Of a stretch of 64,000 nucleotides of DNA, positions 6,170 through 32,625 are shown in pieces (within the stretch, counting starts at the first letter, position 1; every line of letters begins with the position of its first letter). The notes under the pieces were generated by a model. That model was not told the DNA's origin, searched no databases, and saw only the letters and a list, made by a program, of their open reading frames with translations. The position numbers were made by a program, and so were the translations under genes. This stretch comes from Nocardia brasiliensis (lineage in GTDB: Bacteria > Actinomycetota > Actinomycetes > Mycobacteriales > Mycobacteriaceae), in assembly GCF_011801125.1 (NCBI RefSeq), contig NZ_CP046171.1, forward strand, positions 1,860,001 through 1,924,000. Direction: 5' to 3'.

Positions 6170-6519
6170 CCAGTACGCAGCCGCCGAGGCCGCCGCCGGT
6201 CAACTCGGCGCCCTGCCTGCCGATACCCCCATCGCCGAACTCGTAGGCCTGGCCAAGGTCCGCTGGCGCATCGAACACGACTACCGCGAACTCAAAACCG
6301 GCCTCGGCCTCGACCACTTCGAGGGCCGATCCTGGCTCGGCTGGCACCGCCACGCCACCCTCGTCACCGCCGCCCACCTGTTCATCACCACACCGCGACT
6401 TACCGACCCGAAAGCAACGGGGCAGGACTGACCTTCTACGGCATCCTCCACAAATCCAATGCGCACTAGCTATTTGGATCGGCACCTGCCCACTCTGCCG
6501 CCACACCTTCCCGACCTAA
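6170..6519 (+). pseudogene. IS701-like (DDE) transposase remnant, C-terminal part
   Basis: The frame ending at 6431 translates to a typical transposase C-terminus, including RWRIEHDYRELKTGLGLDHF (about 6261-6320) and HATLVTAAHLF. After a frame change the reading continues with ALAIWIGTCPLCRHTFPT and stops at 6519, which matches the usual end of this family. The N-terminal two thirds are missing and no paired terminal repeats were found, so the element is dead. It marks DNA exchange between the P450 and the mauE-like gene. Confidence 0.75.
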
Positions 6520-6761
6520 CAAAGCACTACTAGGCCGTGTAAATGCCCGCATAAATTTTGGAGGGCTACTTGCGCCCTGCTCGACGTGTCCTCGGCTCTA
6601 TTATGGTTGCAAGGTTGCTATCGTGCTTGCTGCACCCTTCGGCGGGGCAGGTGGACTATCTGCAGGCCTCCCTTCCGTTGTGCGGTTAGCGCGAGAAACG
6701 CGCCGCGTGGCCGGAGTCGGACGAAGCCGTCAATGCCTGCCTAGAGAAGTCGAGGAGATCA

Positions 6762-7319
6762 GTGCTTTTTGAGTGCTTCATGGTCTTGATGGCTGTCGTG
6801 CAGATGGTGCTAGCCATCCGACTGTTGGCCGCCGGGTTGCGAAAGATGCGTAAGCCAGCGGAGACAAGAATTGCAATGGCGCGATATCGAGTAGTGCCCG
6901 AACCCCTGGTGACCTTTATGGCGGCGGCATTGCCAATTGTAGAGATCGCGATCGGCATATTCCTGCTCGTCGGTGCGTCTGTGCGATGGGCGGCATGTGC
7001 CGCCGCAGGACTGCACATTGGATTCGCGATGGTGATCAGCGTAAATCTCTTGAGAGGCCGTTCGTTTGATTGTGGGTGCCATGGAGCCGACGCTGGTCGG
7101 ACAATCGACTGGGCACTCGTTGGCCAGAACCTTATCTCCGCTGTCGCGGCGGCACTGCTTGCGATCCATCCTTTACCCAGGATTCCCGGCATGGACACGG
7201 TCGCAGTAATCGCGGTGACTGCGATGGCGTGGTGCCTCGCACGGCTGCTGGTCACCATGCGCCATGTGGCTGCGCAGGCCGGCCAGGTTGAAAGTCATTT
7301 GCTGTGGAGGGTGATCTGA
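6762..7319 (+). CDS. MauE/DoxX-family redox membrane protein
   Basis: 185 aa membrane protein with about four to five hydrophobic segments and the family signature FDCGCHG (a CxC pair, about residues 104-110). The GTG start at 6762 has GAGGAG just upstream. MauE proteins work with thioredoxin-like MauD in forming the many disulfides of the methylamine dehydrogenase light chain. Here the next gene, overlapping by one base, is MauD-like, and 155 bp further a cysteine-rich exported peptide is encoded. The likely role is electron transfer for disulfide formation in that peptide; no methylamine dehydrogenase gene is present. Confidence 0.82.
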   Translation: MLFECFMVLMAVVQMVLAIRLLAAGLRKMRKPAETRIAMARYRVVPEPLVTFMAAALPIVEIAIGIFLLVGASVRWAACAAAGLHIGFAMVISVNLLRGRSFDCGCHGADAGRTIDWALVGQNLISAVAAALLAIHPLPRIPGMDTVAVIAVTAMAWCLARLLVTMRHVAAQAGQVESHLLWRVI

Positions 7320-7885
7320 TGACGTGGCCGTGGATGATGGTGGTGCTTGCCCTTGTTGTCGTGGTCGTCGGGCAGAGCATCCTGCTGCTCGGACTGATGA
7401 CGCGATTAGAGCCGACTCTGGCCAAACTGGAGACCCTATTCGGGCCGGGCACAGAGTTGTATCCCGCTACTGGCAAACAACTTCCAGAGACTGAGTTGTA
7501 CGACGGCAGCGGCGGGAGTGTCCGCTCCGGTCAGTGGCTCGGGACGCAGCAAGTGTTGCTGTTCGCTGCCGCGTCGTGTCCACCGTGTATGCACTTACTC
7601 GACGGTCTGCGTGCAAGCCCCGCCCGAGAACCTGATGTTCCAGTCATGCTCATTACCAATGAGGCTTCTGCGCAGGTCCTGCGCGATGCCACGCTCCCTG
7701 ACTGGCTCATAATCCTCCACGAGTACGAGGACGGGTTGGCTGAAGGCCTCGGAGTGGACCGTACACCGTTGGCAGTTCTGGTCGACGAACATAATCGGGT
7801 TCAGCACACGACCGTCCCCAAGACGGTCGATGATATTCTCTCTGCTCCGAGAATCACTGCCGAACGGATCTTGTCCGGTCCATAA
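7319..7885 (+). CDS. MauD-like membrane-anchored thioredoxin-fold protein
   Basis: 188 aa. One N-terminal transmembrane helix (residues ~4-28) is followed by a thioredoxin-like domain with redox motif SCPPC (about residues 85-89) and a cis-proline-type TPLAVLVD segment. The ATG at 7319 overlaps the mauE-like stop (TGATG) and is preceded by GGAGGG, so translation is coupled. The domain is expected on the outer face of the membrane, oxidising or isomerising exported cysteines. The pairing with MauE and the cysteine-rich peptide downstream makes a dedicated disulfide-maturation role the best inference. Confidence 0.82.
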   Translation: MTWPWMMVVLALVVVVVGQSILLLGLMTRLEPTLAKLETLFGPGTELYPATGKQLPETELYDGSGGSVRSGQWLGTQQVLLFAAASCPPCMHLLDGLRASPAREPDVPVMLITNEASAQVLRDATLPDWLIILHEYEDGLAEGLGVDRTPLAVLVDEHNRVQHTTVPKTVDDILSAPRITAERILSGP

Positions 7886-8039
7886 TGCGAGTTTACGCCA
7901 AACCGTCCCACAGCACCGACCATTCAAGAGTTCACTTGCCGACGTGTCCCAGCGCCGCAGTCAGACGCCATCAAGTGTTAGTCGACGCCATTTCAGGATA
8001 ATTGGATTACCCCAGTATCAGAACGGATGGAGTTCGACC

Positions 8040-8333
8040 ATGTGTGCATCTCCTCGACCCGCCGATCGTGTTCCCCGAGCTTCGGTGCCGACCTCTCGTC
8101 GAGCGCTCATCCGAATGATCGCTACCTCTGCGGGAGCGGGTGCGCTCGCGATGATCGGCATGTCTACGGCCCGAGCGCAACCAACAACCTGCAATTGGAA
8201 ACCTTCTGCTACATATAAGGGCGTCTGCGGTAGTGACCAATCCTGCGAAGATGAATGCGTAAGGCGCAACGGCGCGAAAGGTGGACGGTGTTACTACGTA
8301 TACCCGGCGCACCGCTGTGAATGCTGTCAATAA
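8040..8333 (+). CDS. Tat-leader eight-cysteine defensin-like (CSalpha-beta) peptide
   Basis: 97 aa precursor. The ATG at 8040 has GGAG 7 bases upstream. The leader carries a twin-arginine motif, SRRALIR (about residues 19-25), a hydrophobic stretch and a signal peptidase site ARA|Q at 46/47. The mature 51 aa have eight cysteines (51, 63, 69, 73, 84, 93, 95, 96) in the pattern C-x11-C-x5-C-x3-C-x10-C-x8-C-x-C-C. CxxxC plus CxC is the CSalpha-beta core, and GRC with a following cysteine fits the gamma-core GxC-x(3-9)-C. Spacing and short matches such as YKGVC and RCEC recall plant defensins. Defensin-like bacteriocins are known from Actinomyces (actifensin). Activity is inferred, not shown. Confidence 0.75.
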   Translation: MCASPRPADRVPRASVPTSRRALIRMIATSAGAGALAMIGMSTARAQPTTCNWKPSATYKGVCGSDQSCEDECVRRNGAKGGRCYYVYPAHRCECCQ

Positions 8334-8385: not shown

Positions 8386-8766
8386 CCGGCGAAAAGAGCC
8401 AAGGGGCAGAAGAAGGCTCTGCTCGAACCTCACCGGGAGGTACCTGTGGTGCGGCGCATCTTCGCCTTGCTGGGCGCTGCACGCGCCGTTGCTGATGTCG
8501 AGGCGGGGGTGGAGCGGCTGGTGCGCGAGCTCTCGCCGGGCCGAATCGGAGAGTTCGACGTCTTCTATGGGTGGGCGGCGACTCCACATCGGTTGCGTGC
8601 AGGGCTACCCACCGTACCGTCCCGCTGTCATCGGCACTCGCCGAGGAAGTCGGGTTGCCTGATCGAGGAGGTGGGGTGCGGCAAGATATCGACCCGTTGC
8701 GCGGCGGTCTCCGCGCGGAGTTCCTGGGTGTTTGAGTGCTGGGTGGAGTGGGTATCCCCGCTCTGA
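8386..8766 (+). pseudogene. Internally deleted large serine recombinase scar
   Basis: The frame contains KRAKGQKKALLEPH followed by VVRRIFAL, nearly identical to the second recombinase remnant at 14030-14115. It then jumps to ADVEAGVERLVREL, which matches the coiled-coil part of the second copy at about 14767. The zinc ribbon and most of the recombinase domain are thus deleted, and the catalytic N-terminus is absent. Beyond about 8560 homology is lost. It lies just before an att-like border and supports an older serine-integrase element at this site. Confidence 0.65.
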
Positions 8767-8835
8767 CCCGGACTAAGTCCAGGTCAGAGCGGGTGTGGCG
8801 CCCCCGGCGGGGCACCATATAGATGGGAACAGTGC
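8756..8835. repeat. att-like border with hairpin, remnant
   Basis: CCGCTCTGACC...GGTCAGAGCGG (about 8759-8792) followed by GCGCCCCCGG copies the arrangement beside the intact tRNA-Arg at 47448-47500; the shared stretch begins about 20 bp earlier with TGTTTGAG and GGGTATCCCC. Just after it, TAGATGGGAAC (about 8819) matches an arm of the inverted repeat at 15180-15212. Only the outermost ~10 bp of the tRNA core remain. I read it as a decayed attachment border. Confidence 0.55.
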
Positions 8836-9512
8836 CGACCAGCATCTTCTTGGTGGTCGGTTGGTGCTCGAAGCTGACTTCGCGCTGTGACGGCCGCCGA
8901 TTGTTGTGTCGGTCCCAATCATGCGGCGTTTCGAACAGCATCCATACAAACGTCTACCCCTCGTGAACCGGCCTACTGACCGAAGAAATACGAGCTGGGA
9001 TGCCTTGCAATTGCCGAAGTATCTCGAAAGGCGTGGGCCCCAGACGGTCGTCCGCGGGGCGGCCATCAGAACGTGCCTGGCACAGCGATTCGAACAGCTC
9101 CTCGGCGACAGCTTGAGATTCGCTCACAAATCCATCATCCATCCAGCTGCCAGGCCCTCCGCTCCTCTTTCCCGACTTCGGCCATGCTGGCCTGACAACT
9201 TCAGGCCGCCGAAGGTGCGCCGAAGCCCAGTGCACGTGAGCGGTTGAGGTGACTGTGCGAGCGGCACCGATCCAAGGTAGTCGTGGCTACGAATACCAGC
9301 TTGGTGTGCACGACCAACCTGGCGGCACACGGTCTTTGGCGGTCGATTTGAATCGCTAAGGCTTCTTGTGTCCGTATCTTGCCGGGCTCGATCTCCTGAG
9401 GAGCGGTGTGTTTCAGTCTGGAATCACTTGTGCAGGGTTCGTCAGAGGCTAGTGTGTGCCGGGTTTTGTTCGTTTCCTTGGAGGTTCGCCGGACCGCGGA
9501 GGTTTGACCTGC
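8836..9512. other. Mostly noncoding accessory DNA
   Basis: About 680 bp without a strongly supported gene. One minus-strand frame (9142-8954, 62 aa from an ATG with GGAGGG about 12 bases upstream) has protein-like composition (SESQAVAEELFESL) and may be a small gene or a fragment; I do not recognise it. The porin promoter probably lies at the right end. Confidence 0.3.
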
Positions 9513-30595: not shown

Positions 30596-31789
30596 ATGAC
30601 CGAATCAAATGCAGCCGAAAACATGACAACCGACGATCCCGGCACACAGCCGGTACACGCCGACGAGAGCGCGTCTTGGCCTCGGCGGCCGATGCGGGCT
30701 TGGCCGGTGTTGCTGCTGGCGTTGCCGGCGTTCGTCGCGATCTGGTCCGGGTGGGTCGGGCTGGGTGAGTTAACCGGGTTCGGGCCCGTGCGGCCGTTGC
30801 CGGGTATCGCGGACACCTTCACGATCAACACTGCGATCACGTTGCCGATCGGGATGGAAACCTATGCCTCTTACGCGCTGTATGTGTGGCTGGGCAACCG
30901 GATCCGATCCGCGGGCACCCGCCGCTACGCGAAGTTCTCCGCGTTCGGCAGCCTCGCGCTGGGCGCGGTCGGTCAGGTCGCCTACCACCTCATGCAGTCC
31001 GCAGGGGTGCGGACCGCGCCGTGGGCGGTGACCGTGCTCGTGGCCTGCCTGCCCGTCGCGGTGCTCGGCATGGGAGCCGCGCTGGCACACATGATCCTGC
31101 GCGAGCACCACCCCGCCACCGCCGAGGAGACCATGCGAACGGTGGTGCACAGCGGTGCAGAACGATCGAATCCTGCTCCGGAAACGGTGCGGACCGACGG
31201 TGCGCACCCCACCGTCGCTGCACCAGCGAACGCACCAGCGCTCGACCCTGTCGCATCAGGTGGTGCACACGCTCCAACCGGTGCACCACTGCGGCGGGCA
31301 GGAGTGGTGCGCACGCACCGGCGCGCTCGATCCCACGTGGGGCACCGTCGGCCCGGCCGCTCTATTCGCCCGCACACCGAAGGCCTCACCGCAGGCATCG
31401 CGGCTGATCAACCCGCATCAACCCGAGCAGCCGAAGCGGCGTCTCCGACGACCGAGCAACGGCTTCCGGCCGACCGTGACGCACTGATCCAGGAGCTCAC
31501 GGCCCGAGGTATGTCGACCCGCCAGATCGGTCCGCTCGTCGGGGTGGCTCACTCCACCGTCGTGCGTGTGCTCGAACGCACCAAGGCTGCACCGGCCGAT
31601 GCACCACCGGCGCGGCGCACACCAGTCAACGCACCACCGACACCAGAGCCGGTGCACACCACACCCTCGGCGCGGCATCCCGGGCTGCAAGTCGTGCACA
31701 ACCGTGCGGGCGGACCGGTCGATGTGATCGACGCCGAGCTAGTCGAGGACACCGGACCCACCGGCGATGCCACGCGGAGGCAGGCATGA
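30596..31789 (+). CDS. Four-helix membrane protein with C-terminal HTH (Spd/DUF2637-like)
   Basis: 397 aa. Four hydrophobic segments between residues ~35 and ~165 include WPVLLLALPAFVAIWSGWVG and LPIGMETYASYALYVWLG, typical of element-borne membrane proteins often mislabelled ABC permease. A disordered linker follows, then a helix-turn-helix (LTARGMSTRQIGPLVGVAHSTV, ~300-320). The membrane-plus-HTH design suggests anchoring DNA at the membrane during transfer. A stretch at 31155-31487 is also open in another frame, but I see no frameshift. Confidence 0.7.
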   Translation: MTESNAAENMTTDDPGTQPVHADESASWPRRPMRAWPVLLLALPAFVAIWSGWVGLGELTGFGPVRPLPGIADTFTINTAITLPIGMETYASYALYVWLGNRIRSAGTRRYAKFSAFGSLALGAVGQVAYHLMQSAGVRTAPWAVTVLVACLPVAVLGMGAALAHMILREHHPATAEETMRTVVHSGAERSNPAPETVRTDGAHPTVAAPANAPALDPVASGGAHAPTGAPLRRAGVVRTHRRARSHVGHRRPGRSIRPHTEGLTAGIAADQPASTRAAEAASPTTEQRLPADRDALIQELTARGMSTRQIGPLVGVAHSTVVRVLERTKAAPADAPPARRTPVNAPPTPEPVHTTPSARHPGLQVVHNRAGGPVDVIDAELVEDTGPTGDATRRQA

Positions 31790-32625
31790 TGAGTGGGATC
31801 GAGTGGACCGAGGTCACGTGGAATCCCGTGACTGGGTGCGACCGGATTTCACCCGGCTGCCTCAATTGCTACGCCTTGACGATGGCCAAACGGCTCAAAG
31901 CCATGGGCGCCGCGAAATATCAAGCCGACGGCGACCCGCGCACCTCCGGGCCGGGGTTCGCGGTGACGATTCACCCTGAGGCATTGGGGATTCCGGCGCG
32001 CTGGCGCACCCCGCGGCTGGTGTTCGTCAACTCCATGTCGGATCTGTTCCACGCCCGTGTCCCGGAGTCGTTCGTGCACCAGGTGTTCGAAGTGATCGCT
32101 TCGACACCGCAGCACACCTACCAGGTGTTGACGAAGCGGCCGTTGCGGATGCGGCGAATGGCGCAGGCGGGCTTGGTGTTTCCGCCGAATCTGTGGGTCG
32201 GTGTGTCCGTCGAGGACCAGGACAGCACCACCCGGATCACCCACTTGCAAGCGACACCGGCGGCGGTGCGGTTCCTCTCGTGTGAGCCGCTGCTCGGACC
32301 GGTCGATCTGGACACACACCTGTTCCCGCAGCGATGCCCGGGTGTCTGCGGGTGCCGTCGTCGCGACGACCCGGACCGGTATGAATGCGGTTGTGGTGGT
32401 GAATGTTCGGGCGGGAACCCGCACCCGGCGCTGGACTGGGTGATCGCCGGCGGCGAGTCCGGCCCCGGCGCCCGCGCGATGCGCCCGGAGTGGGTACGCG
32501 ACCTGCGTGATCAATGCGTCGAGGCGGGTGTGCCGTTCTTCTTCAAGCAGTGGGGTGGGCGCACACCCAAACAGCACGGCCGCACCCTCGACGGGCAGAT
32601 CTGGAACCAGATGCCCACCACCTGA
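31786..32625 (+). CDS. DUF5131 / phage Gp37-Gp68 family protein
   Basis: 279 aa. Family start IEWTEVTWNPVTGCDRISPG with CxxxxxGCxxCYA cysteines of radical-SAM-like spacing, FVNSMSDLFH, VLTKRP, LWVGVSVEDQ and GGESGPGARAM. An insertion at residues ~183-208 adds a cysteine cluster (CPGVCGCRR ... CGCGGECSGG). ATGA overlap makes it the last gene of the long operon. The family is common in phages and next to DNA-modification or defence genes; its reaction is not established. Confidence 0.87.
   Translation: MMSGIEWTEVTWNPVTGCDRISPGCLNCYALTMAKRLKAMGAAKYQADGDPRTSGPGFAVTIHPEALGIPARWRTPRLVFVNSMSDLFHARVPESFVHQVFEVIASTPQHTYQVLTKRPLRMRRMAQAGLVFPPNLWVGVSVEDQDSTTRITHLQATPAAVRFLSCEPLLGPVDLDTHLFPQRCPGVCGCRRRDDPDRYECGCGGECSGGNPHPALDWVIAGGESGPGARAMRPEWVRDLRDQCVEAGVPFFFKQWGGRTPKQHGRTLDGQIWNQMPTT

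Follow-up and report, generated by a model that had tools for sequence, protein, structure and literature searches.

A candidate plant-type defensin with a twin-arginine leader is encoded beside mauE-like and mauD-like genes in Nocardia brasiliensis

RESULTS

A mauE-like gene, a mauD-like gene, and a precursor gene share one locus

We analyzed a 64-kb stretch of DNA, here called the window, from a Nocardia brasiliensis genome that is a single contig of 7.95 Mb. Positions 6762 to 8333 of the window hold, in this order on the + strand, a mauE-like gene, a mauD-like gene, and a gene for a 97-amino-acid precursor, and all three frames are intact. The mauE-like gene (6762 to 7319) starts at GTG 6762 (185 amino acids) or ATG 6780 (179 amino acids) and ends with TGA at 7317 to 7319. 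The mauD-like gene (7319 to 7885; 188 amino acids) begins with the ATG at 7319, so that it overlaps the mauE-like gene by one base (TGATG), and its stop codon is at 7883 to 7885. The precursor gene follows after 154 bases, with its ATG at 8040 and its stop codon at 8331 to 8333; GGATGGAG lies 7 bases upstream of this start codon.

An earlier note on this DNA had described the first product as a MauE-like membrane protein with an FDCGCHG motif. We have confirmed this by alignment, by hydrophobicity (several hydrophobic segments), and by a PF07291 match at an E value of 3.5e-26 (92.4 bits against a gathering cutoff of 27). DoxX gives a second, weaker Pfam match (E value of 1.9e-5), and the full motif reads RGRSFDCGCHG. 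The same note had called the second product an overlapping MauD-like thioredoxin with an SCPPC motif. The gene, the overlap, and the motif are as described, and the protein has a single N-terminal hydrophobic segment (residues 1 to 31). Alignment and a Redoxin match (PF08534, 26.6 bits, right at the family cutoff) place it in this group. However, it scores 31.7 bits against the MauD equivalog TIGR02661, for which the cutoff is 188.6. Because this is so far below the cutoff, we refer to the protein as MauD-like and not as the MauD of methylamine dehydrogenase (MADH). The same genome also has a second, weaker MauE/DoxX gene (G000:C1:3158559-3158792, L145; 30.9 bits against the cutoff of 27).

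The mature peptide resembles plant PDF1-type defensins

The reading of the third gene as a precursor with a twin-arginine leader, an ARA↓Q cleavage site, eight cysteines, and a GxC gamma-core was borne out in the sequence. The 46-residue leader (8040 to 8177) contains TSRRALIRM, then a hydrophobic stretch, and ends at ARA↓Q, as is expected of a Tat substrate, so the peptide is predicted to be exported. TIGR02811, the TAT-target model, matches the leader weakly and under its cutoff (E value of 0.0034). The script used below to find Tat-leader cysteine-rich genes also calls this precursor. The mature part, with its stop codon, occupies 8178 to 8333 and encodes 51 residues with a net charge of only +2 and a pI of 8.2. 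Its cysteines lie at mature positions 5, 17, 23, 27, 38, 47, 49, and 50, and it has the C-x5-C-x3-C spacing, the GxC gamma-core (here GRC), and the CxC of defensins. In plant defensins C8 comes a few residues after C7, whereas in this peptide the two are adjacent (mature 49 and 50). The computed mass of the mature peptide is about 5702 Da when oxidized, 8 H below the 5710 Da of the reduced form, and would be about 17 Da lower with a cyclized N-terminal Gln.

The defensin likeness that the earlier note proposed is now supported by homology that goes beyond cysteine spacing. The PF00304 score of the peptide, 28.3 bits (26.7 bits when the genome was searched), lies above the gathering cutoff of 25.1. 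The best matches in the PDB are plant PDF1/Rs-AFP-type chains (2n2r, 2m8b, and 1ayj; E values of 2.4e-11 to 1.3e-10). Against three PDF1-type chains, 19 to 21 of 42 ungapped residues are identical (45 to 50%); six cysteines, C2 to C7, are in register, and 13 to 15 of the identities are at positions other than cysteine. When the peptide was shuffled with its cysteines fixed, none of 5,000 shuffles scored as high against any of four plant stretches as the peptide itself does (z of 7.3 to 10.5). A six-frame search of the window for the CS-alpha-beta cysteine pattern, which we composed after the peptide had been seen, gave a single match, and 400 kb of control DNA gave none.

We also modeled the peptide with AlphaFold2 from its single sequence with no relatives. 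The model has a helix at 21 to 34 and strands at 37 to 41 and 46 to 50. Its mean pLDDT is 64.7, and with this low-confidence model neither Foldseek nor VIA-align found a significant match in the PDB. Therefore, the assignment of the mature peptide as a plant-type (gamma-thionin) defensin draws on its sequence.

The triplet was found in one genome and has features of an acquired cassette

We then looked for relatives of the peptide. There were none in 98 other related genomes, where the only weak match (G027) contains a stop, lacks the cysteine pattern, and was judged false, and none in plasmids, in phages, or in the genome-contigs scan. The six other MauD-bearing Nocardia genomes, G174 included, gave no match below an E value of 0.1. 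PF00304 matched in 12 of 148 Nocardia genomes at an E value of 0.01, and in two of the 12 the cutoff was exceeded: by the window and by a 68-amino-acid frame in G172. We judged the latter spurious, as an open frame of 566 amino acids overlaps it and its end has no CxC. The ten others, all under the cutoff, were taken for chance matches from their translations. With relatives of the peptide absent from the sets searched, the mauE-mauD-defensin triplet is seen once, in one genome. At the DNA level, with two candidates scored in each of 148 genomes, only G174 matches the cassette (68%, over mauE-mauD only).

Base composition offers a hint that the defensin domain is foreign. The G+C content of the mature part is 52.9% (GC3 of 49%, from 51 codons only), compared with 65.2% for the leader and 65.0% for the window. 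Just upstream of the mauE-like gene, positions 6211 to 6540 hold what is left of the 3' part of a DDE-type insertion-sequence transposase, recognized by DNA matches in other Nocardia genomes. Its best copies are 85 to 89% identical in five Nocardia genomes, two of which have two copies, and three full copies of the element carry a PF13546/PF01609 transposase. The low G+C content, the upstream transposase remnant, and the rarity in the genus together fit recent acquisition, and from these features the locus is probably a horizontally acquired cassette.

On the 3' side of the defensin gene, a short stretch at 8718 to 8963 recurs, by DNA matches, in many Nocardia genomes. At three of the copies, or close by, the reading frames match Lsr2, DUF4345, or no family, and one copy overlaps an Lsr2-like gene.

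MauD-like genes often adjoin a gene for a Tat-leader cysteine-rich protein

We asked what lies beside MauD-like genes in other genomes, using the MauD-like protein alone as the query and reading the neighbors afterwards. A MauD-like gene is present in 7 of 150 Nocardia genomes, and in six of these seven a gene for a Tat-leader cysteine-rich protein (here called the cargo) is beside it. The six cargoes are the defensin in the window, an 8-Cys peptide in G108 (N. mexicana), an 8-Cys protein in G112, and light-chain-like proteins in G129, G004, and G164. The N. mexicana gene (L023, 5765 to 6088) is convergent with mauD and, because it lies on the opposite strand, is outside any one operon with it. 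The G112 gene (L024, 7577 to 8104) encodes another, different 8-Cys protein and lies upstream of mauE. One light-chain-like cargo (L025) matches the MADH light chain model PF02975 at 2.6e-32, and two others (L026 and L027) look alike by eye. The seventh genome, G174, has the closest MauD (60% identical) and has no Tat-leader cysteine-rich gene within the 30 kb read. A gene of this kind likewise lies beside the MauD-like gene in G068 and G432. Two observations count against the exact defensin triplet being a conserved unit: no other cargo read is a defensin, and the closest cassette, that of G174, has no cargo gene in the 30 kb read.

The region around L025 (6449 to 10220), also from Nocardia, has mauE-mauD, then the light-chain gene, and a multicopper oxidase downstream. 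A 467-amino-acid frame between the light chain and the oxidase has no Pfam family at an E value of 1e-4.

Across the phylum, a MauD-like profile matched 60 of 346 genomes. This profile gave 28 new loci, of which 18 had a Tat-leader cysteine-rich protein, three were cut by a contig end, and seven had no such protein; the sample leans toward cargo, because seven of the eight sequences in the profile were themselves taken from loci with a cargo and because 13 of the 18 cargoes belong to a single family. These 13 also mean that the phylum loci cannot be treated as independent; the remaining five cargoes are different proteins. Sixteen of the 18 were called by script and two (G616 and G690) came from the neighbor list; G616 was also called by a later script. 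The G690 cargo is light-chain-like, 35% identical to L025, without a Pfam match, and was judged by eye. Of the 28 loci, the best 20 comprised 15 with a cargo, three that were cut, and two with none. One of the seven loci without cargo (L086) does have a cysteine-rich frame, which lacks a Tat leader. Three further weak MauD matches (L097 to L099) had no cargo. Altogether, 10 of the 31 phylum MauD loci inspected were without a Tat-leader cysteine-rich gene.

A scan of named genomes with a MauE profile yielded seven loci: N. mexicana, two metagenome-assembled genomes (MAGs), and four from Spirochaete MAGs. The two MAGs, one actinobacterial and one from Acidobacteria (L047 and L049), have the same layout of MauE, MauD, and a Tat-leader cysteine-rich gene. 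In the Spirochaete MAGs (L044, L045, L046, and L048), MauE carries RGRSFDCGC, and no MauD was found at these loci, nor a Tat-leader cysteine-rich gene within 2 kb.

As a control, we ran the Tat-leader cysteine-rich gene finder on 400 kb of DNA (20 stretches from five of the same genomes). It made three calls, and a looser form made six; none was convincing by eye. A call in the window at 31480 to 32625 was spurious, as the arginine pair is internal to a longer frame. When 14 neighboring cargoes were scanned, only the L025 light chain exceeded a Pfam cutoff, and by eye the cargoes have little in common except a Tat-type leader and many cysteines. MauD-like genes often adjoin a gene for a Tat-leader cysteine-rich protein. 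The link that the earlier note drew between mauE-mauD and Tat-leader disulfide-rich proteins extends past this locus: it is seen at six of seven Nocardia loci, this one included, and at 18 of 28 phylum loci.

The shared phylum cargo is a 10-Cys family

The family shared by the 13 loci has a Tat leader, a motif beginning CGHTYTT, and ten invariant cysteines, with about 126 residues from the CGH motif (for example, L056 1985 to 2596, L132 3146 to 3733, and L133 3235 to 3885). Two members were scanned and had no Pfam match. A model of the family has a pLDDT of 82.9 and no PDB fold match at an E value of 0.001. The reverse search found the family in 25 of the 342 phylum genomes, 22 of which have MauD and/or MauE next to it. 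Of the remaining three genomes, G436 is truncated upstream where its contig ends, G487 offers 0.6 kb of upstream DNA only, and in G501 neither gene lies within 7.5 kb. We rejected the idea that the family is a distant MADH light chain, as hhalign aligned only W..CC...DCC (21 columns, probability of 0.6%, E value of 0.089).

Comparison with known systems

The closest likeness of the peptide is to the plant PDF1/Rs-AFP defensins (PF00304), with which it shares 45 to 50% identity over 42 residues, the C2-C7 register, and the GxC gamma-core. It differs from them in being bacterial, in its Tat-type leader, in having C8 directly after C7, and in its mauE-mauD neighbors. Bacterial class V cis-defensins resemble it in having eight cysteines in a plant-like framework, and one actinobacterial member has been named (PMC11561630). 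That class is defined by a fourth disulfide, C1-C8, and a third beta strand, and the main text of the report contains no occurrence of Tat, thioredoxin, or Nocardia (PMC11561630). Actifensin (PMC6989792) and actinomycesin (PMC8819291) are likewise actinobacterial CS-alpha-beta defensins. Actifensin has six cysteines and is reported to have three disulfides and to be antibacterial; ABC-transporter and protease genes surround its gene, and thioredoxin, DsbA, and VKOR do not occur in the available text of that report (PMC6989792).

On the side of the maturation genes, the MADH mau cluster is alike in that MauE and MauD adjoin a long-leader disulfide-rich protein. It differs in that the cargo here is unrelated, the MauD-like protein is under the equivalog cutoff, and the light chain was not found: PF02975 had no match at an E value of 0.01 in this genome, nor in 14 control genomes, and the same model does match L025. 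We therefore rejected a methylamine dehydrogenase reading of the locus. The MADH precedent for MauE and MauD, as described in PMC7794033, speaks of disulfides. In that study, decRiPPter found three families with mauE in Streptomyces, one also with mauD, in which each predicted precursor has at least eight cysteines, and a role for mauE/mauD in precursor modification was proposed. These clusters were from Streptomyces only, and the text available from that report has no occurrence of Tat and mentions no defensin.

The clusters of the class I lasso peptides sviceucin, MS-271, and humidimycin also pair a DoxX-family protein and a CXXC thioredoxin with a disulfide-bearing peptide (PMC9266682, PMC7168211). 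These clusters differ in having their own cyclase and transporters, and the product persists without members of the pair. Release was altered when sviF was deleted, and yield fell without mslE or mslF, but the products were still formed (PMC9266682). The bacteriocin cluster of TMcin likewise has its own disulfide catalyst, TmcD, but this catalyst is of the DsbA type, and the peptide is membrane-embedded and has one disulfide (PMC13252029).

Among the open-licence PubMed Central papers listed by our searches, we found no report in which a defensin with a Tat leader is joined to MauE-MauD, or that describes the breadth of the association. Within these papers, the claim that the combination was undescribed stands for the union of the three, but not for its parts, since MauE/MauD beside precursors with at least eight cysteines (PMC7794033) and 8-Cys bacterial defensins (PMC11561630) are in print.

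DISCUSSION

In the model that we propose, the twin-arginine translocon exports the precursor, and cleavage at ARA↓Q removes the leader. Tat carries such precursors, signal peptidase cuts after ARA, and CXXC proteins of the MauD type handle thiols outside the membrane. MauE is related to DoxX and may return electrons to quinone. The anchored MauD-like thioredoxin, acting outside the membrane with its SCPPC motif, would oxidize or shuffle the eight cysteines into four disulfides, and MauE, through its CGC motif, would reoxidize MauD and pass the electrons onward, probably to quinone. The product would be a plant-type defensin, most likely directed against competing fungi or bacteria. More broadly, MauE-MauD would be a reusable maturation module, for which the MADH light chain is the studied case and which lineages pair with differing Tat-exported cysteine-rich proteins.

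The earlier note had suggested that MADH maturation logic is reused for a defensin. The defensin homology, the Tat-type leader, and the MauE-MauD association support this suggestion in part, and the other loci speak against conservation of the exact triplet. We hold the whole account, an acquired Tat-defensin cassette with MauE-MauD disulfide maturation, to be probable, with confidence that is moderate because members of the lasso DoxX/thioredoxin pair were dispensable for the product (PMC9266682). A wider form of the idea is tentative, and we would give it somewhat less than an even chance. In it, Tat-exported disulfide-rich proteins in Actinomycetota and beyond have in MauE-MauD a general and interchangeable oxidative-folding module dedicated to them, distinct from the housekeeping DsbA/VKOR, and the plant PDF1-type defensin domain, possibly from a plant, was captured here and fused to a native Tat leader.

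The strongest alternative is that MauE-MauD serves export, quality control, or producer protection and that the defensin folds spontaneously outside the cell. Such a role has been suggested for the DoxX/thioredoxin pair of lasso peptides. This would agree with the lasso deletions (sviF, mslE, and mslF), which changed release or yield while the products were still made (PMC9266682), and with the DoxX relationship that MauE shares with the lasso pair. However, a Tat-type leader and many cysteines are what the cargoes have in common, which points to thiol chemistry, and the MADH precedent concerns disulfides (PMC7794033). We therefore regard this alternative as unlikely. It is less probable still that the peptide is no defensin, being either similar by chance or a convergent cysteine-rich protein. 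The lack of a bacterial orthologue in the genomes searched, the weak single-sequence model without a significant PDB match, and the adjacent C7 and C8 would all suit such a protein, but 45 to 50% identity to PDF1 chains, 0 of 5,000 shuffles, and a PF00304 score above the cutoff would not. That the cassette is decaying, with three unexpressed genes left beside an insertion-sequence remnant, is very improbable: the upstream transposase remnant, the occurrence of the triplet in one genome only, and a consensus promoter search that gave one match (inside mauD) against 0.6 expected by chance are offset by intact frames, the retained mauE-mauD overlap and motifs, and GGATGGAG before the peptide start.

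If disulfide maturation by MauE-MauD is correct, mauE-mauD would serve as a genomic marker by which unannotated, disulfide-rich exported peptides could be located. Defensins are hard to produce in bacteria, and the locus would represent a natural bacterial system for their secretion and folding. The function of MauD and MauE would also become testable on a 51-residue peptide rather than on a quinone enzyme.

At some of the phylum loci, the MauE and MauD profiles match one frame (L133 3848 to 4735, L134 3552 to 4502, and L086 706 to 2292), and these are apparent natural MauE-MauD fusions. At L082 (6359 to 7888), a single 509-amino-acid frame joins MauE, a TlpA/AhpC-like domain, and PqqD, and no Tat cysteine-rich gene was found nearby. 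PqqD is a RiPP-recognition fold, and the fusion may tie MauE-MauD to RiPP chemistry.
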